Position numbers and translations under genes: made by a program
DNA from: Cognatundibacterium squillarum
GTDB taxonomy: Bacteria; Pseudomonadota; Gammaproteobacteria; Burkholderiales; Burkholderiaceae_D
NCBI RefSeq assembly: GCF_014652435.1
Contig: NZ_BMYU01000005.1
Span: 1 to 64,000 of the forward strand
Direction of reading: 5' to 3'
DNA: 64,000 nucleotides
Notes under the pieces: generated by a model
What the model was told of the DNA's origin: nothing
Seen by the model: only the letters and a program-made list of their open reading frames with translations
Databases searched by the model: none
Shown: positions 6,605-40,744 of the stretch, piece by piece
How positions within the stretch are numbered: the stretch's first letter is position 1
Layout: the number at the start of each line of letters is the position of its first letter

Positions 6605-6718
6605 TGTCATTTTGTTGTCATTACGGAGCCTAATCAGCCCCAAATAACCCCAATTTAAGACAACCTTAAAAATCTAAGTTGTTGATTTTTAATGGTATTC
6701 TGGTGGAGTCGGCGGGAA
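6605..6718. other. Candidate prophage attachment region at the ssrA 3' end
   Basis: Between the last phage terminator and the tmRNA CCA end lie two copies of TGTCATT (6605-6611, 6616-6622; 11 bp apart) and two of CCCCAA (6638-6643, 6648-6653; 10 bp apart). Direct repeats one helical turn apart are typical of integrase arm sites. The ssrA 3' end (from 6701) is a well-known phage integration site and remains intact here. The exact core cannot be set without the left junction. Confidence 0.5.
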
Positions 6719-7060
6719 TTGAACCCGCGTCCAGAAGCCCTCTACAGACAGTTCTACATACTTAGTGTTGTCATTTGATTTAACCTGAACGACGCGGACA
6801 CACACGCTGCGGTCAGGCTAGTTACCTAAAGTTTAGTCATTAACCAGGTAACCCGGTAAATGACGATTTCCTATAAATTACCTTACTGCTGTTGCCAGCC
6901 CACCCTAGGAACAAAGTGGTGTAAGGAAAGCCGGATTTAAGCGGCTAATGCGTACGAAGAATCGTTTGCAGTTATATTTTTCAGACTGTATTTGCGAGGT
7001 GATCTGGCCTCGGTATGCCCTGCACTGCTTTGCAACCCCTGTCGAAACCAGGTCGACCCC
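6701..7060 (-). ncRNA. ssrA: Transfer-messenger RNA (tmRNA)
   Basis: 360 nt, one-piece tmRNA that rescues stalled ribosomes. The 5' end reads GGGGTCGACCTGG and the 3' end is a tRNA-Ala-like acceptor and T arm ending in CCA, with the loop sequence TTCAATTCCCG. The tag reading frame (6937-6969) reads GCA AAC GAT ... GCC GCT TAA and gives the tag (A)ANDSSYALAA, with the hydrophobic ALAA end recognised by proteases. It lies between the prophage end and gph, and its 3' end faces the prophage. Confidence 0.95.
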
Positions 7061-32993: not shown

Positions 32994-33539
32994 ATGCAAA
33001 AAATACATCTGATAATCGCACTGAGCGCAGCCACGATGAGCCTGTCTCCGTTTGCGCTGGCAGACGCTGCCACACCTGCCGCTGCGCCGCTTGCGACAAC
33101 TGCAAAGCAGAATGCAAACAAAGCAGAAAAAGCCATTCATGCATTGCTCGATCAGTGGCACAACGATGCGGCCCGCGCTGACCGCGCATATTTTGACAAA
33201 ATGACCGGAAACGCCGTGTTTATCGGCACCGACCCTGATGAGCGCTGGACCCGCGCCGAATTCATCAAATGGTCGGAACCGTTTTTTCAGCGCGGCAAGG
33301 CCTGGACTTTCCATGTGCGTGAGCGGCATCTGAAACCGGATTTGTCCGGCAAATGGGCATGGTTTGATGAACAGCTGGATACCGATCTGGGTTTGTGTCA
33401 GGCCAGCGGCGTGGTGGTGCTGACTGCACAGGGCTGGAAGATTGACCATTACCAGTTATCGATCAGCGTTAAAAATGAACTGATTGAACCGCTGAAAAAA
33501 CTGACTGCAGATTTGCCTGCGACTAAAAAAGCGCCTTAG
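32994..33539 (+). CDS. Exported NTF2-like (SnoaL/DUF4440-type) protein
   Basis: 181 residues. Signal peptide with cleavage after ALA (about residue 23), an Ala/Pro linker, then an NTF2-like fold: RADRAYFDKMTGNAVFIGTDP, W...EF.KW..PFF, WAWFDEQLD, and VVVLTAQGWKIDHYQLS. In the family this cavity fold binds small molecules; no catalytic residue is obvious. It lies 38 nt after the deacetylase gene on the same strand, so cotranscription is possible. The dispersed repeat follows its 3' end. Confidence 0.75.
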   Translation: MQKIHLIIALSAATMSLSPFALADAATPAAAPLATTAKQNANKAEKAIHALLDQWHNDAARADRAYFDKMTGNAVFIGTDPDERWTRAEFIKWSEPFFQRGKAWTFHVRERHLKPDLSGKWAWFDEQLDTDLGLCQASGVVVLTAQGWKIDHYQLSISVKNELIEPLKKLTADLPATKKAP

Positions 33540-33977
33540 CAGCATTGTCAGCCTGTGCTGTCTGGATTTCCGGCATCCTTCCGCAGCATCGCGTGATCGT
33601 CCTCTGCGGCGTCTCCTGCAACGAATTTCAGGCATTTTCAGGCCCAAATGCGGTGTTCTGCATAGCGACCCCGCTGTCGTCGGCGGAAAGTCCGGGCCTT
33701 CGGAAATGCGTGATGACGATAGCTGCACAATAGCGATGCATTTCCGGCACGGTTTAGCATCGCAATCCTGCTGGCTTGGGTTTGAAACTCCGGATCGCTG
33801 AACGGCCTGATCGCTGCAATAAAATCCCTGAAGATCACCGGAATGGTGATTTTGTATATCCATACCGCTCACAATCAGCGGATTTCACGGTTTTTATCGG
33901 TCGCCGCGTCCGGTGCAGGTCGTCATTCGGCCAGACTCTCCCGTACAATAGCGGTTTGAATAAGTTTGACGAAAAAT
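33540..33977. other. 438-nt gap holding repeat copy A
   Basis: No supported gene. It contains the dispersed repeat (33645-33727) and, just before it, two near-copies of TTTCAGGCA (around 33627-33645). A frame on the plus strand (33545-33733) and one on the minus strand both run through the repeat but lack a Shine-Dalgarno or conserved family; they are treated as chance. Confidence 0.5.
33645..33727. repeat. Dispersed 83-bp intergenic repeat, copy A
   Basis: Aligned by hand without gaps to 40486-40568: 71 of 83 positions match, with the first 10 and the last 13 or so identical. Both copies share AAAGTCCGGGCC and end in GACGATAGCTGCA. On the minus strand both can be read as a peptide with the shared pattern GPDF.PTTAGSLCR, but this need not be coding. 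See findings. Confidence 0.8.
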
Positions 33978-34925
33978 ATGTCGATACAATGGTTTCCCGG
34001 GCATATGAATGCCGCCCGGAAGAAAGCTGCCGAGGCGATGGAAAGCACCGATCTGGTGATCGAAGTGCTGGATTCCCGCATTCCTCAGGCCAGCTGTAAT
34101 CCCATGGTGGAGCAAATCCGGGCAGCACGTCAGCGTCCTTGTCTGAAGATTCTGAATAAAGCGGATCTGTCTGATCCGGCAGCGACCAAAGCCTGGCTTG
34201 ATTTTTACAATGCGCAGAAAAACGTGCATGCGGTAGCACTCAGCTGTAAAAAGCCGGCTGACGTGGCGAGAATCCCTTTGCTGGCGCAGAAAATCTGCCC
34301 GCATCGTGCGGTGCCGACCAAGCCTTTGCGCATGATGATCATGGGCATTCCGAACGTCGGAAAATCCACGCTGATGAATGCCTTGCTGAAAAAGCGGGTA
34401 GCCAATGTCGGTGATGAACCGGCTGTTACCAAAACCCAGCAGCGCCTGTATCTGGGCAAAAACATGATCCTGACGGATACGCCGGGGATGCTGTGGCCAA
34501 AAATTGAACATCCTACCGATGGTCTGATGCTTGCTGCCTGCCATGCAGTCGGCGTGAATGCAGTGATTGAAGAAGAAGTCGCGGTGTTTCTGGCCGGGCA
34601 GTTGCTGGATAAATATCCTGCAGCGATCAGCGCACGTTATAAGTTTTCACTGGACGGGCTGGATGCGGTCGGGGTGGTCGAAAATATCGCGAAACAACGT
34701 GGTTTCCGAATCAAGGGCGGTGATCTGGATTTTGAAAAAGCGTCGCACACGCTGTTGCTGGACTTCCGCAGCGGTGCGCTGGGCCGTATGAGTCTGGAAA
34801 CGCCAGACAGCCGCGCTCATCTGCTGGCAAACTATGTTGAAGAACCTTCACTGGGCTTAAGTCGCAGCGTGCAGGAATTCCTGAAGACGGAAGAGGGTGG
34901 CGAGCCACAGGAAGACGAAGACTGA
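33978..34925 (+). CDS. Ribosome biogenesis GTPase (RbgA/YlqF family)
   Basis: 315 residues from ATG 33978 (an upstream TTG at 33966 is possible). Circularly permuted GTPase: the G4 motif NKAD comes first (about 61-64), then G1 GIPNVGKST (about 124-132) and G3 DTPG (about 170-173). The N-terminal WFPGHMNAARKKA is diagnostic of RbgA/YlqF, which helps late assembly of the 50S subunit. The acidic tail EEGGEPQEDED is unusual but fits such proteins. A terminator follows. Confidence 0.9.
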   Translation: MSIQWFPGHMNAARKKAAEAMESTDLVIEVLDSRIPQASCNPMVEQIRAARQRPCLKILNKADLSDPAATKAWLDFYNAQKNVHAVALSCKKPADVARIPLLAQKICPHRAVPTKPLRMMIMGIPNVGKSTLMNALLKKRVANVGDEPAVTKTQQRLYLGKNMILTDTPGMLWPKIEHPTDGLMLAACHAVGVNAVIEEEVAVFLAGQLLDKYPAAISARYKFSLDGLDAVGVVENIAKQRGFRIKGGDLDFEKASHTLLLDFRSGALGRMSLETPDSRAHLLANYVEEPSLGLSRSVQEFLKTEEGGEPQEDED

Positions 34926-35010
34926 TTTCGGTCCTGCATCGTTCGCAGTCAGTGTTGACCGCAGACGACGCAACGGACCGGACTGACTGAGCAAATCAGC
35001 GATATCAGGC

Positions 35011-35039
35011 AAAACGGGGCAATTTGATTGCCCCGTTTT
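35011..35039 (+). terminator. Terminator after GTPase gene
   Basis: AAAACGGGGCAA, loop TTTGA, TTGCCCCGTTTT; symmetric and also usable by the GntR gene coming from the other side. Confidence 0.85.
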
Positions 35040-35079
35040 ATTTCTGAATCGCGCTTTTGTCTGAAGACAGAGGATGCGG

Positions 35080-35748
35080 TCAGCCGATCACTTTACGGGC
35101 GAATGACTCCAGATAATCCATCAGACCATCGGATGCTTTCATCGCCAGATCTTCATTGCCTTTGGAAATCGCTTTCGCGACCAGCATATGGTTACGCGCA
35201 CCTTCTTCCACATCGCCTTCGTGCTGGAATGCATACCAGAAGCGGCGGCATTTTATAATCATCGGAATCACCGCCTGCACCGCAGACGGGTTGCGGCAGG
35301 CTTCGTGGACTACGTAATCGAATTCCTGATCCGCTGCCATGTATTCATTCAGATCGTGGCGTTTGGCGGCAATCAGCATCTTTTCAGCACATTCCACCAT
35401 CGCTTTGCGTTGCTGCGGATTGGCGCGACGCGCAGCACTTTGCGCAATCAGTCTTTCCACAACGCGACGGGTTTCCACCAGTGTCATGTGTTCAGCTGGC
35501 TCAATATCGCTGATGATCAGGCCGCGGCGCGGCATCTGAATGATCAGACCATTGGATGACATACGCATCAGCGCTTCGCGCAGTGGCGTGCGGCCCAGTC
35601 CGGTACGTTCAACAAGTTCAGATTCCACAATCGGTGCGCCCGGTTTCAGATCCAGGCTGACGATCATGCTCTCAATCGCATCATAGGCGATATCTGCAGC
35701 ACGCTTCTTGGGCGCGCTAGGTGTGGTCGCTTCGACTTTGGTAAGCAT
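35080..35748 (-). CDS. GntR family regulator, FadR subgroup (FCD domain)
   Basis: 222 residues. N-terminal winged helix (about 16-80) with SELVERTGLGRTPLREALMRM, and a C-terminal all-helical FCD domain (about 90-215) with conserved E, D and H residues (VETRRVVE; DQEFDYVVHEACRN) that usually bind a metal and a small organic acid. Divergent across a 502-nt gap from a PAS-AraC gene and near a hydroxyproline epimerase, so it may control amino acid or organic acid use; the ligand cannot be read here. Confidence 0.88.
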   Translation of the reverse strand: MLTKVEATTPSAPKKRAADIAYDAIESMIVSLDLKPGAPIVESELVERTGLGRTPLREALMRMSSNGLIIQMPRRGLIISDIEPAEHMTLVETRRVVERLIAQSAARRANPQQRKAMVECAEKMLIAAKRHDLNEYMAADQEFDYVVHEACRNPSAVQAVIPMIIKCRRFWYAFQHEGDVEEGARNHMLVAKAISKGNEDLAMKASDGLMDYLESFARKVIG

Positions 35749-36250
35749 CTTTATTCCCTGAATATTCCAATATTTTTTGTATATATTACTGCTTTTTCTT
35801 GAATTTTACGCTGAATAAGTTCATTCAGCATATTATGCATTTTGAAAGTAACTTGAAAGCTTTGACACGGCCTTGCGCTGAAGGTTCACGCTGGTAATAT
35901 AAAACTGAAAATCCCCGGTTTCAGGGAATTTAATTTCACAGATGTTCAGTAATGCTATTCTGATTTCATGTTTTGTGCAGGAGGTGATGTAGATTTCTGC
36001 ACAGTGTGTATCGCAGTTACGTTATGATTCAGCGTTTAAAATGCAGTTAGTATATTTAAAAACGCTGATTTTTTTCCTTGTGGCAAATACTTATTGACGA
36101 GAAATCGTTTGCGCCAACTTTTGTAGGTTCATAAGCACATTTCGCACACGTTTATGATGAAAAGTTAAGCCTTTTTATCCGGAATCAGGTATGCTCTCAT
36201 CCTTAATATATTAGATAAATATATTAAGCTCATCTTGTGAAAGTGATCCG
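35749..36250. other. 502-nt AT-rich divergent regulatory region
   Basis: Lies between the divergent GntR and PAS-AraC regulator genes, with no gene. AT-rich motifs with AATATT (35761-35774) and GTATATATTAC (35779-35789) lie close to the GntR start, and a perfect palindrome (36202-36228) lies close to the AraC start. Likely to hold operators for one or both regulators. Confidence 0.55.
36202..36228. promoter_or_regulatory. Perfect AT-rich palindrome in front of the PAS-AraC gene
   Basis: CTTAATATATT, spacer AGATA, AATATATTAAG: two perfect 11-bp arms ending 22 nt before the ATG at 36251. A symmetric site like this fits a dimeric regulator such as a GntR-type protein better than AraC direct half-sites. 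Confidence 0.6.
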
Positions 36251-37018
36251 ATGGAAAAACATGCAATTTTCTCAGCTGTAGAGAAGCGTCATAATCTCGC
36301 AAACCAGCTTAGTGATGTATTTTTTGCTGAACAATTGTTCGACACCATGTCTGATATCGTCTTTTTCGTAAAAGACACGGAAGGGCGTTATGTCGTTGTG
36401 AACCAAACCCTGGTGCGCCGCTGTGGTTTGCGTGAAAAAAATGCATTGATTGGTCGTAAGGCAGAAGATGTATTCCCCAGCTCGCTGGCAATCAGCTATG
36501 CCGCGCAGGATGCCATAGTGCTGCGCGGTTCGCGTGAGTTGCGCGATCAGCTGGAATTGCATCTGTATCCGAACCGTTCTCCGGGCTGGTGCCTGACGCA
36601 GAAAAATCCACTGCGCGATGAACGTGGTCACATCGTGGGTATGTGCGGCATTTCGCGTGATCTGGCGACGCCGGATCAGCATCATCCGGTATATGCAAAA
36701 ATCGCCGCTGCCGTGAAGTATCTGCACCAGAATTATGCGCAGACAGTCACAATGGCAGAACTGGTGAAACTGACCGGCTTATCGATTGCGCAGCTGGAAC
36801 GGAATTTCCACAAAATCTTTTCGCTGACACCACGTCAGATGATGGTCAAGATTCGTCTGGATGCGGCATCGATTATGCTGGCAGAAACCAATACCAGTAT
36901 TACGGAAATTGCACTGGCATGCGGCTATCAGGATCACAGCGCATTTTCCCGCGTATTTAAAGCGACAGTGGGAATGACGCCGAGTGAATACCGTGAAGTG
37001 ATTCGCAAAAAAGTCTGA
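36251..37018 (+). CDS. AraC family regulator with N-terminal PAS domain
   Basis: 255 residues. A PAS domain covers about 28-140 (FDTMSDIVFFVKDTEGRYVVVN; GRKAEDVFP; GHIVGMCGISRD), followed by a two-helix-turn-helix AraC DNA-binding domain (about 155-252) with MAELVKLTGLS and ITEIALACGYQDHSAFSRVFKATVGMTPSEYR. PAS-AraC proteins next to 4-hydroxyproline epimerase genes usually regulate hydroxyproline use, which fits the convergent gene 264 nt downstream. The PAS ligand is unknown. A shared terminator lies between them. Confidence 0.9.
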   Translation: MEKHAIFSAVEKRHNLANQLSDVFFAEQLFDTMSDIVFFVKDTEGRYVVVNQTLVRRCGLREKNALIGRKAEDVFPSSLAISYAAQDAIVLRGSRELRDQLELHLYPNRSPGWCLTQKNPLRDERGHIVGMCGISRDLATPDQHHPVYAKIAAAVKYLHQNYAQTVTMAELVKLTGLSIAQLERNFHKIFSLTPRQMMVKIRLDAASIMLAETNTSITEIALACGYQDHSAFSRVFKATVGMTPSEYREVIRKKV

Positions 37019-37040
37019 TTCCGCTTGCCGGATTCAGGCA

Positions 37041-37070
37041 AAAAAAGCACCGCAGTTGCGGTGCTTTTTT
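37041..37070 (+). terminator. Terminator after PAS-AraC gene
   Basis: AAAAAAGCACCGCA, GT, TGCGGTGCTTTTTT; long symmetric stem. Confidence 0.88.
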
Positions 37071-37281
37071 ATTTGTTGTGTAGCGAATTGCCGTTCGTGA
37101 TCAGTGTGTTTGCGGAGATTGCTGCAGGCTGAACCTGATGGTGATACGGATAGGTTTGCGCTTTAGTTTGCGCGGACAGGTTACCGCTTGAGGTAAGGAA
37201 ATGTGGCGGGAATAAAAAAAACCTGCTGCGCGCGCGAGGGGGATGGGGTGCGGGGCAGCAGGGCGGAAAGGATATCGCCGG

Positions 37282-38226
37282 TTAGCGGATACCCCAGATG
37301 AAAGGGTCACGTTCGTTCAGAATCAGCTGGCTGTCGGCATTCACGAAGGCTGTGCCGCGCAGCGTTGGCAGAATTTTGTGTTTTTCAGCATCGGTAAAGC
37401 GATACGAAGCATGGAATACGCTGCCGAGTATGCTTTCCTGATGCCAGATACTGTCTTCCTGCAGTTTGCCATCAGCGGCCAGACAGGCCAGCTTGGCGCT
37501 GGTGCCGGTGCCGCAAGGAGAGCGGTCATAGGCTTTGCCCGGGCACAGTACAAAACTCTTGCTGTGATTTTCAGCGGACTGCGGCTTGCCGAATAATTCG
37601 ATGTGATCAATCAGACCGCCGTTTTCGCCGGTGATGCCTTGTGCTTCGAGTGCTTGTCTGACCTTCCATGCGTACTCGGTCAGGCGTTCAGTATTTTTCA
37701 GCGATAAATCCTGACCGTGATCGTTGATCAGGAAGAACCAGTTGCCGCCCCATGCGATATCGCCGGTCACGACGCCTTCGCCCGGTACTTGAACACGTAC
37801 AGCTGCCTGATAGCGGTAAGAGGGAACGTTGCGGACAGTGACGCTGAAATCTTCGTTCAGTTCCGCCTCAACGATACCTACTGGCGTTTCGACTTTGTGT
37901 ATGCCGGGCTGAATTTTGCCCAGATACGCCAGCGTGACGATGTAACCGATCATGCCGTGACCGCACATGCCGAGATAGCCGACGTTATTGAAAAAAATCA
38001 CACCGGAAACGCAGTCCGGATGGCTGGTTTCGCAGTGCAGTGCACCGACAATCACGTCCGAACCGCGTGGCTCGCAGACGGTAGCGCTGCGGTAGTGATC
38101 GAACTGTTCGCGAAATACGTGCAGGCGCTGTTCCATGCTGCCGTTACCGAGTTCTGGTCCGCCGCCAATAATGACGCGGGTGGGTTCTCCGCCGGTGTGG
38201 GAGTCGATAATGTGAATCTTCTTCAT
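37282..38226 (-). CDS. 4-hydroxyproline 2-epimerase (proline racemase family)
   Basis: 314 residues. Interconverts trans-4-hydroxy-L-proline and cis-4-hydroxy-D-proline. The N-terminal [11 protein letters not shown] is the family signature. Both catalytic cysteines are visible, in [10 protein letters not shown] (about residue 90) and in [14 protein letters not shown] (about 238), which supports an epimerase rather than the dehydratase forms that lack one Cys. It is next to a PAS-AraC regulator, but no hydroxyproline oxidase or deaminase gene is nearby, so the rest of the pathway must be elsewhere. Confidence 0.85.
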
Positions 38227-38515
38227 CTGCGACCTCGTTATAGTTTGATACGGAGAGAGAATACTGAGCTGTGTGTGCAGCGTCTTGATATGAAATTTGC
38301 TTATGCTGCTTTAAATGTGCATAGCAATTTTTGCATTAGTGTGGCTGTTTTGGTAGTTTCATCGCTGCAAATCTGTCGGTCTGCCGGAAATATGGCAGAC
38401 TCCTGCACTGCGTCACCGTGCGCCAGTGTCAGATTGTGGCCGACAGGCGACAAGCAGCCTCCGCGCAGCGGTATGATCAAATGTGTCAGAGATTGAGTAC
38501 CGGACCAGATAAACA

Positions 38516-40432
38516 ATGAGTGTGTTGCAGTTGACGGAATCAAAGCAGACGAACCAGTCAGACCTCAGTCGCTTGCGGCTGGGGCTGTTGTTGTCATTGC
38601 TGGTGCATGTGTTGCTGTTGTCGCTGCAGTTTGGCGGGGACAGCAGGGAAGCTGCGGATGCGTCCGAAGCGGGCAAAGCGGCGGAGCTGGTGCCGCCCCC
38701 TTTGCAGGTTCGCCTGCAGACAGCTGAACCGGTGGCGCAGGAAGAGAAAACTGCATACTCAGTGACACCGCAACCACCGGCACCGCAGTCCGCAATTAAG
38801 GCACCGGAACAAGCTGCTGACGCGGCACCGTCAGCGCCGCGTACCGGCATACAACTGGTGGAGTTGCCAAAAACGGTAAGGTCAGCTGCGACTGCGGAAC
38901 CGGCACAGAAAACAGTGACGCAGCCGCGTAAATCCGTCAAAAAAGCGCCTGTCTCAATAAAAAAAGGTGCGCCTGATGCTGCACCGCTGATCATCGCGCA
39001 GGATCGTTTTCGGGTTGACAGTTTTTTAGTGGCGAATCCGCATCCCGATGATCCGGTCAAAGTGTCCGGCACGACCGAGCAAAGCAGCGAACCTGCGCAA
39101 AAAGTTGCTGTCGCTGAAGAGTCGCCGAAAACCGTGACGGAACCGGAAACCGAACAAGAACCTGCGCCAGCGCCGGCAAAGTATGTTCCGGCGCCGGAAA
39201 AAGTGCAGGCTCGTCAGAAAACGCTGGCACCGGAAGCGTTGTTGTTCGCGACACCGGCATCCGGCGCCGAGCTGACAAAATCTATGCAGTCCGATGTGAA
39301 AGTCCAGGCAGAGGCAATTCGTGCACAAATCAGTGCGGAACAACAGCAGTTGCGTGAGCAGGAGGCAGCTAAGGCAAGAGAGGCACAGCGACTGGCGGAG
39401 CAGCAACTGGCCGAACAGCGTCTGGCTGAGCAGAAAAAAGCCGAAGCGCAGCGCTTACAGCAAAGTCTGGCAAGTCTTGATCAGATGGCGACTACCGCAC
39501 TGCAAGCACGTCCTGCCGAGCCGGTGCAGGATGCCGTAGCGCAGCGTTTGCAGGAGCAGGCAGCGGCGGAACGGGAGCTGCGACGTCAGCGCGCCCGTGA
39601 ACAGGCGAATTTCAGAGTGACGGACCGCGAACAGCAGGAGCAAGTCAGTGCGCTTGCGAAAGCACAGGAGCAAGCGAAGCGTGAAGCCGAATCCGTGCAG
39701 TCGCAGCTGGATCAGCAAGCGGCGGCCAGCCGTCAGCAGCAAAAAGAGGAGATGCGGCGTGCCACCGAAAGCCGGCTGGCGCAGATGGCCGCAGCGCAGG
39801 CGGAAGCGGGGCGTTTGCAAAGTAAGGCTGCGACGTCCGGGGCTGGCACTGAAGGCAAGGGCAGCGGTGCGCGTCAGGATGGCAGTGCAGCGACACCAAA
39901 GGCGGGTGTTACGCAGGGTGGCGGCAATGATCCGCTGGCGACAGGCACCAGCAAGGGCAATGAAGCGATTTCTTCCGGCCCCGGCGATTTTGCGAGCCGT
40001 CTGCGCGATCAGGCACGCGGGCTGAATTTACTGAAGGGGGCGCCGCCCACCAATATGTTGACCGAGGGCGGTCGCCGTAAGCTGTATCTGGGTGCAACGG
40101 AGCGTAACGTGCATTTGCGGATGTATGCAGACAGTATCGCGCAGAAGTGGGAGCGTAACGGCAATCTGAATTACTCCGACAGCGCCCGCAATAAGTCGCG
40201 CGGCGATGCGGTGGTGACCGTGGTGATCCGGAAAGACGGCAGTGTGGAGGAAGTGGTGATTCACCGTTCCAGCGGCAGTAATGAGCTGGATCAGGCGATC
40301 CGGAATATTGCGAAGCTGAATGCCCGCTATGCCATTTTTCCGGAGGCAATCAGTGCTGATTACGATGTGCTGGAAATCCGTAAAGTCTGGCGTTTTGATG
40401 AGCGTCTGAGTATCGGCGAAGAGTGGCGCTGA
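38516..40432 (+). CDS. Large TonB/TolA-like energy transducer
   Basis: 638 residues. One N-terminal membrane anchor (about 21-40, LRLGLLLSLLVHVLLLSLQF; the buried SxxxH pattern is used by TonB to couple to ExbBD), a Pro/Ala-rich region (about 55-240), a long charged coiled coil of Gln/Ala/Glu/Arg repeats (about 265-440), a Gly/Ser linker, and a C-terminal TonB-type domain (about 540-632, RKDGSVEEVVIHRSSGS). The long coiled coil makes it more TolA-like and could span the whole periplasm. No exbB/exbD genes are adjacent. ATG 38516 has a weak Shine-Dalgarno. Confidence 0.75.
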   Translation: MSVLQLTESKQTNQSDLSRLRLGLLLSLLVHVLLLSLQFGGDSREAADASEAGKAAELVPPPLQVRLQTAEPVAQEEKTAYSVTPQPPAPQSAIKAPEQAADAAPSAPRTGIQLVELPKTVRSAATAEPAQKTVTQPRKSVKKAPVSIKKGAPDAAPLIIAQDRFRVDSFLVANPHPDDPVKVSGTTEQSSEPAQKVAVAEESPKTVTEPETEQEPAPAPAKYVPAPEKVQARQKTLAPEALLFATPASGAELTKSMQSDVKVQAEAIRAQISAEQQQLREQEAAKAREAQRLAEQQLAEQRLAEQKKAEAQRLQQSLASLDQMATTALQARPAEPVQDAVAQRLQEQAAAERELRRQRAREQANFRVTDREQQEQVSALAKAQEQAKREAESVQSQLDQQAAASRQQQKEEMRRATESRLAQMAAAQAEAGRLQSKAATSGAGTEGKGSGARQDGSAATPKAGVTQGGGNDPLATGTSKGNEAISSGPGDFASRLRDQARGLNLLKGAPPTNMLTEGGRRKLYLGATERNVHLRMYADSIAQKWERNGNLNYSDSARNKSRGDAVVTVVIRKDGSVEEVVIHRSSGSNELDQAIRNIAKLNARYAIFPEAISADYDVLEIRKVWRFDERLSIGEEWR

Positions 40433-40744
40433 GCCAGTGCTAGCCGTGCAGGCTGGAAAATGCCTGAAATTGCCCGAAATTGCCTCAAATGCGGTTTTCT
40501 GCACAGCGATCCGGCGGTCGTCGGCAGAAAGTCCGGGCCTCGGGAAATGTCGAATGACGATAGCTGCATAGCTGGTGCTGCTGTCGCTGTGTTTCAGCGC
40601 CGGAAAAGCATGTGTCAGACAGGAAATGCCGCACGGGTGTAAGCTTGCATTTTTGTGATCAGCGATCAGGGCAGGGCATGACAGCTGCTGATTCGCGCCG
40701 CCCGTTTAACCGGAGTTAATCAGGGTTCTTCAGGATCCATCAGT
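40433..40744. other. 312-nt gap holding repeat copy B
   Basis: No supported gene. Three tandem 10-bp near-repeats TGCCTGAAAT, TGCCCGAAAT, TGCCTCAAAT (40461-40490) run into the dispersed repeat (40486-40568). Small frames on both strands run through it and are treated as chance. Confidence 0.5.
40486..40568. repeat. Dispersed 83-bp intergenic repeat, copy B
   Basis: Same orientation as copy A at 33645-33727 and about 6.8 kb away; same length with no gaps, 12 substitutions. It is preceded by three tandem 10-bp units, whereas copy A is preceded by two units in the reverse-complement sense. Confidence 0.8.

Follow-up and report, generated by a model that had tools for sequence, protein, structure and literature searches.

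A dispersed repeat family nearly confined to one species

The first 64,000 nucleotides of contig NZ_BMYU01000005.1 of Cognatundibacterium squillarum (RefSeq assembly GCF_014652435.1; hereafter the window) hold two similar intergenic sequences, copy A (33645-33727) and copy B (40486-40568), which are two members of a dispersed DNA-repeat family of ~300 copies that is nearly confined to one species. The element consists of a curved 5′ arm, a palindromic box 1, a central GTCGGCAGAAA motif and a box 2 in direct orientation. Judging from sequence, we think it about as likely as not that a protein complex docks on the DNA of each copy, where it would sit on the two dyad boxes and the centre and take up the curved arm.

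The pair had been picked out in a first-pass annotation, made without database searches, whose coordinates, shared orientation and ungapped identity (71 of 83 positions) proved exact on recount; the identical run at the 3′ end comprises the final 15 positions. Both copies are intergenic and on the plus strand, as annotated: copy A lies ~107 bp after the gene that had been read as coding for a secreted protein (32994-33539, SnoaL-like domain) and copy B ~55 bp after the TonB-like gene (38516-40432, TonB_C). The genes flanking the two copies encode the SnoaL-like domain protein, an MMR_HSR1 GTPase, the TonB_C protein and an epimerase. In the genome collection compared, the ten best relatives of the GTPase, mostly named Undibacterium, are 77-80% identical to it, which assigns the genome to this genus. 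When the window was randomised 20 times with an order-1 Markov model, copy A found at best 38-44 of 83 matching positions, and no third match above 40 of 83 was present on either strand of the window itself.

Across the genome, a BLASTN search with copy A returned 250 candidates, and the best 40 that were scored were, besides copy A itself, 82-90% identical to it. A 20-bp core pattern with at most three mismatches matched 293 sites (156 on the plus and 137 on the minus strand) in 4,185,104 bases, or ~1 per 14 kb, against 3 for a control pattern, and a two-box pattern with the middle left free found 260 sites against 0 for its control. The annotation had stated that a lack of further copies in the genome or in relatives, and of a common structure, would reduce the pair to chance or a local duplication; ~300 copies are present, and together with the Markov control they rule out both as the origin of the two copies.

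The annotation had also proposed a search among relatives, where copies proved nearly absent. With at most two mismatches the core gave 267 matches in its own genome; of 391 others sampled from the family, 15 had one or two matches each, none with fewer than two mismatches, and the control pattern likewise gave scattered single matches. Beyond its own genome the box-pair pattern was found, once each, in 2 of 42 other Undibacterium genomes, and in 3 of the 391 family genomes, the third of which (G320) has another spacing and looks like chance; among 398 further genomes drawn from the order, five had one match each, unlike the element. The family and order sets are samples, the genome collection compared may omit records of the same or very near genomes, and the box-pair pattern as used elsewhere recovers 56 block sites (see below) versus 78 pairs at 63-86 bp, so that diverged copies elsewhere can be missed.

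The two Undibacterium copies (G218 and G247) are real: both have the two boxes at 65 bp and keep part of the centre (GAAAGT). Their 131-bp element regions are 83% identical and represent one orthologous site beside an aminotransferase gene, and a DNA search with one of the two copies gave no second credible copy in either genome. At this locus (L173 in G247 and L174 in G218, ~1470-1660), the element stands where a variable region meets the conserved aminotransferase gene; the genes of the variable region read like toxin/immunity genes, and the DNA further downstream is much more alike between the two genomes than the ~83% element region. A plasmid or phage origin was rejected: copy A had no blastn match among 72,556 plasmid records or 50,697 phage records, and the exact core had none in IMG/VR. 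Among the papers listed by the literature searches, whose coverage excluded most subscription journals, none describes such an element in Undibacterium.

Anatomy of the element

The anatomy was worked out on 845,026 bases in four contiguous blocks, in which genes were called by a home-made open reading frame finder based on codon usage. A set of 100 copies comprised 76 block copies and 24 copies at loci to which BLAST or a pattern search had led; the tests of spacing, context and selection on the central region used block copies only. Within the blocks, 83 direct box pairs lay at most 150 bp apart, against 1 for a reversed control pattern. Sixty-two of these were spaced at 65 bp, 10 at 86, 2 at 84, 1 at 85, 2 at 63 and 1 at 64, and the five other spacings (29, 30, 39, 94 and 104) arise from the arms of three copies; changes of spacing between the boxes are thus rare. 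Box 1 (AAATGCGGnnTTCnGCAyAG) and box 2 (AATGnSGAnnnCTGCAyA) are imperfect dyads in the same orientation. Arm and 84-bp core together span roughly 130 bp. The central GTCGGCAGAAA starts at +33 in 61 of the 62 copies of the 65-bp form and at +43 in nine of the ten of the 86-bp form, which therefore has 10 bp extra before and 11 bp extra after the centre. In other words, the 86-bp form is the element with one helical turn added on each side of its centre; it also has an additional A tract at ~+20 and a T tract at ~+31. Unpaired intergenic boxes are few. Among such sites we observed a box-like sequence at C2 226054 and dyads at C5 123777 and C4 210686.

Copies A and B are both of the 65-bp form, with all of their parts on the plus strand. 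From pair spacing, BLASTN and the copy-boundary comparison described below, the 84-bp copied unit (AAATG...TGCACA) spans 33646-33729 in copy A and 40487-40570 in copy B. Box-pair analysis places box 1 at 33646-33665 (AAATGCGGnnTTCTGCAyAG) and 40487-40506, and box 2, a direct repeat of box 1 lying 65 bp downstream, at 33712-33729 and 40553-40570. The central motif, placed at +33 by the count of central-motif positions, occupies 33679-33689 in copy A (GTCGGCrGAAA) and 40520-40530 in copy B (GTCGGCAGAAA). The 5′ arms, assigned by tract phasing and with curvature predicted for arms as a group, cover 33606-33645, with TTT tracts at -10 (33636) and -20 (33626), and 40447-40486, with AAA tracts at -10 (40477), -20 (40467) and -30 (40457).

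The phased 5′ arm

The short 9-10-bp units that the annotation had described before each copy are real, and they are AAA or TTT tracts with a 10-bp period. Its "reversed" units of copy A are present as well: they are TTT tracts in phase with the AAA tracts of copy B. Of 62 copies, 89% have an AAA or TTT beginning at position 0, 84% at -10, 60% at -20 and 16% at -30 (19% at -29), compared with 5.6% in the far flanks, whereas tracts within 1 bp of -5, -15, -25 and -35 occur in 0-1% of 89 copies. The best period of the arm is 10.0-10.25. The two tract types interchange: at -10 (n = 87) there are 50 AAA, 25 TTT and 12 others, and at -20 (n = 87) 39 AAA, 13 TTT and 35 others. Between the tracts GCC is largely retained, less so beside TTT.

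Under a simple wedge model, the predicted bend of the arm is 57, versus 25 for random intergenic DNA and 21 for shuffled arms, and 62% of arms exceed the intergenic 95th percentile; the core is not curved by the same model (14-18 versus 24). The arm as a signal independent of the element was considered and rejected, since matches to the arm pattern WWWNNGCCNNWWWNNGCCNNWWW fall chiefly at elements (11 at elements, 1 at another intergenic position and 2 in genes; reversed control 2). A stricter AAA/SSS pattern gave 14 matches, all at elements; it is its own reverse, so that its control (also 14) is no control.

Conservation at the level of DNA

Among the identities that the annotation had offered (a mobile element, a small RNA family or a regulatory repeat), the mobile or repeat option gains support from the dispersed and discrete 84-bp unit, and the small RNA option is not supported by the folds, the covariation or the tract pattern. 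That the copies might be a small RNA family, or structured 3′ ends of messenger RNAs, accords with their position downstream of genes, with the mildly stable single folds of copies A and B (116 nt with flanks, plus strand; z -2.1 and -2.2) and with a minus-strand consensus fold below 20 column shuffles. However, the two single folds differ from each other, the RNAalifold consensus of 89 copies is weak (-2.1 kcal/mol on the plus strand and -3.3 on the minus strand) and earns no covariation bonus, and no Rfam match lies at the copies, the only one in the window being a tmRNA. The compensatory changes for which the annotation had suggested looking did not appear, as there are no long-range covarying pairs above null: the highest mutual information is the AAA/TTT interchange in the arm, the next is between two adjacent positions of box 2, and the top 45 pairs are all at most 7 bp apart, the list ending below null maxima of 0.15-0.19. 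The interchange of AAA and TTT, which would be hard to explain in an RNA, occurs regardless of strand, and taken together with the lack of RNA stems, the rare spacing changes and the whole-helical-turn spacing it argues for a DNA-level element. On these grounds an RNA family was rejected, and we regard it as hardly credible.

A protein-coding repeat was likewise discarded, there being no codon-phase signal (1.359, 1.386 and 1.376 bits, thus equal conservation). Every reading frame, on both strands, is interrupted in some of the 87 copies, the best being open in 76. With equal codon phases and no universally open frame, the similar minus-strand peptide noted earlier in copies A and B looks like a by-product of DNA conservation.

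Constraint on the copies and the unit that is copied

Copies differ from the consensus at a mean of 14.5 of 84 positions, and the differences are unevenly placed. Eleven closest pairs, chosen so that no copy appears twice and each differing at no more than 6 positions, show 49 differences in all; 2 of these lie in columns with a conservation of at least 93%, versus 24 expected if they were uniform. For the central region alone, which was not used to find the block copies, the count is 0 of 31 versus 12.5, and 10 of 136 versus 55.5 when pairs with up to 10 differences are taken. As differences between close pairs fall almost only at variable columns, the copies appear to be under selection where they stand, a pattern not expected of dead transposon copies. 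A profile found 46 matches in 454 kb, 38 with E <1e-3 and 28 scoring at least 55 bits, and the lower-scoring matches, some of which are the long form or partial, form a minority.

The 100 copies include 22 pairs with an identity of at least 93%, of which 21 have unrelated far flanks. In those 21 pairs, identity is 0.95-1.0 over the first eight positions of the unit and 0.52 at -1, and it reaches background within 2-3 bp past TGCACA. The copied unit is thus a discrete 84-bp core, with the arm hardly shared between near-identical copies. For 35 pairs with an identity of at least 92%, the likeness of the arms is 0.43 versus 0.36 (standard deviation (SD) 0.025) when shuffled, the excess lying mainly at -10 to -8, -13 and -5. 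Divided into parts, the arm is 0.57 alike in close pairs at -11 to -1 versus 0.45 (SD 0.05) shuffled, and 0.38 versus 0.33 (SD 0.02) at -40 to -12; in both the boundary and the arm comparisons the close pairs share copies and are not independent. Some co-copying of the last 11 bp of the arm may therefore occur. Among the 65-form copies of that test, tracts stand at -10 in 90% and at -20 in 78%, and because arms are little alike in close pairs while tracts are frequent, the arm appears to be largely a property of the site, either chosen at insertion or selected later. No target-site duplication was detected, the best flank-to-flank match (z 3.82) being reached by 16 of 60 shuffles.

Copies that lie near one another tend to agree. 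Among adjacent copies less than 6 kb apart, 18 of 21 pairs point the same way, versus 21 of 37 pairs further apart (p 0.04), and the 18 same-orientation pairs less than 5 kb apart have a mean identity of 0.833 versus 0.737 for distant pairs (0 of 5000 permutations), a test that includes a cluster at C4 223-227 kb, two copies of which share their upstream flank. The genes between neighbouring copies are, by eye, mostly unrelated to one another. That cluster (G000 C4 223849, 225098 and 226619) consists of three consecutive copies, each 94-96% identical to the next and separated by small genes that are immunity-like by eye, and the shared upstream flank is 83% identical. Two pairs of the 86-bp form on C2 of G000, 163205/177663 (99% identical, ~14 kb apart) and 180818/187482 (94%, ~7 kb apart), have differing arms and unrelated flanks, and are probably young copying events. 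Replication strand was rejected as a determinant of orientation, which showed no consistent match to GC skew over the four blocks.

With respect to genes, 75 of the 78 box pairs overlap them by at most 30 bp; the other three (one spaced at 65 bp) lie in genes and may be chance. The gaps that hold the 75 pairs are convergent in 37 cases, tandem in 31 and divergent in 7, compared with 18, 52 and 29% of intergenic length, respectively (convergent enrichment p 9e-10; divergent depletion p 6e-5), and of the 31 elements in tandem gaps 22 run antisense to the genes (p 0.03). This placement at gene ends may reflect a function there or removal from promoters.

A putative docking site and the alternatives

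The exact helical spacing of the parts suggests a DNA-wrapping protein complex. In the docking-site reading, such a complex would bind the two dyad boxes and the central motif on fixed helical faces and would also take up the curved 5′ arm with its phased A/T tracts, wrapping or bending the DNA, and the sites may influence the architecture or topology of the chromosome at the ends of genes. A copying process would have carried the 84-bp core to places where phased A/T tracts existed beforehand, frequently no more than a few kb away and with the orientation preserved. More tentatively, the whole may amount to ~300 species-specific three-point nucleoprotein sites, at which the wrapping complex itself would copy the 84-bp core into curved DNA at gene ends and selection would keep the copies; we hold this fuller version to be possible and rather doubtful. 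If true, it would describe an accessory chromosome-architecture system unlike repetitive extragenic palindromes (REPs) and bacterial interspersed mosaic elements (BIMEs), known nucleoid-protein sites or known transposons, with a bearing on the long-open question of how short bacterial intergenic repeats function and spread. The sequence largely separates the part that is copied (84 bp) from the part chosen or required at the site (the curved arm), and the two forms, with one turn more per side, offer a natural experiment in helical phasing. No agent linked to the repeat was found; the Y1 family was searched, and other transposase or DNA-binding families were not.

Several observations weigh against docking sites. 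The 3′ half of the 65-bp form is without clear 10-bp phasing, and the sites are clustered, not evenly spaced. They are also missing in nearly all sampled congeners, so that any function would be dispensable at the level of the genus. Gene conversion between copies could, like selection, keep differences at already variable columns, and the convergent enrichment could just reflect the loss of promoter-damaging copies. In addition, the minus-strand consensus fold, a pair of small hairpins, is lower in energy than every one of the 20 column shuffles (minimum -1.5), without covariation.

A non-autonomous mobile element would account for several of the same features. On that account, an 84- or 105-bp unit with direct dyad ends is mobilised in trans and inserts beside curved DNA with phased A/T tracts, without target duplication, and its conservation reflects the needs of the transposition complex, not those of the host. 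The sharp drop in identity at the unit edges of near-identical copies fits this account, as do arms barely more alike than shuffled ones, as if the arm were the target, the lack of a target-site duplication, and the shared orientation and greater likeness of close copies. There is, however, no linked transposase: the only PF01797 gene over the Pfam cut-off (L141, G000 C11 113908-114231, 38 bits; Pfam label Y1_Tnp, RAYT-like) has no box closer than 1.5 kb even with 6 mismatches allowed, and the Y1 family has 1-12 matches in each of 42 out of 43 Undibacterium genomes. Rare changes of spacing, low-scoring copies in the minority and differences that avoid conserved columns are likewise unlike dead transposons, and we consider a mobile element a possible but doubtful explanation. 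Miniature elements derived from IS200/IS605 have two subterminal imperfect palindromes in the same orientation and make no target duplication, both of which the element shares, but it has no matching TnpA that we found and differs in its rare spacing changes, whole-turn forms and curved arm. Miniature inverted-repeat transposable elements (MITEs) and Correia-type repeats, which are ~100 bp long, intergenic and present in high copy number, resemble it in size, copy number and placement; the element shows no target-site duplication, and its ends carry, by reading, direct rather than inverted boxes.

REP- or BIME-type palindromes mobilised by a RAYT (Y1) transposase invite comparison because the element is likewise short and intergenic, occurs in hundreds of copies (~300), has imperfect palindromic parts and lies at gene 3′ ends, and because the genome holds one Y1 gene, that presumed to be RAYT-like. 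REPs, though, form inverted pairs whose spacers vary in length, or stand alone, and REP-like palindromes flank the RAYT gene, whereas here, in a count made of direct pairs, two dyads stand at a fixed 65 or 86 bp with a conserved centre and a curved arm. Intergenic boxes without a partner are few, the Y1 gene has no boxes beside it, and Y1 genes also occur in genomes that lack the element. The fixed direct pairs and the unflanked Y1 gene led us to set this system aside as very improbable. Strong DNA gyrase sites, of which BIME-2 and the Mu site are examples in Escherichia coli, are a better though still unlikely candidate; the phased arm would wrap the GyrA C-terminal domain, and the sites would relax positive supercoils at gene ends. 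The likeness lies in a phased arm of A/T and G/C over ~3-4 turns, the A/T tracts of the element alternating with GCC at 10 bp, and in the location at gene ends, convergent ends being favoured. The E. coli gyrase motif is described as 130 bp long, symmetric and degenerate, with periodic (10.75 bp) GC arms and AT phases thought to face the enzyme (PMC6379681). A strong gyrase site would have A/T-G/C arms with a period of 10.5-10.75 bp flanking a cleavage centre on either side. The element, by comparison, has a specific conserved core with two dyads and a centre, two discrete spacing forms, and only one clearly phased arm, on the 5′ side.

Elsewhere in the window, the tmRNA gene lies at 6701-7060 on the minus strand (Rfam RF00023).

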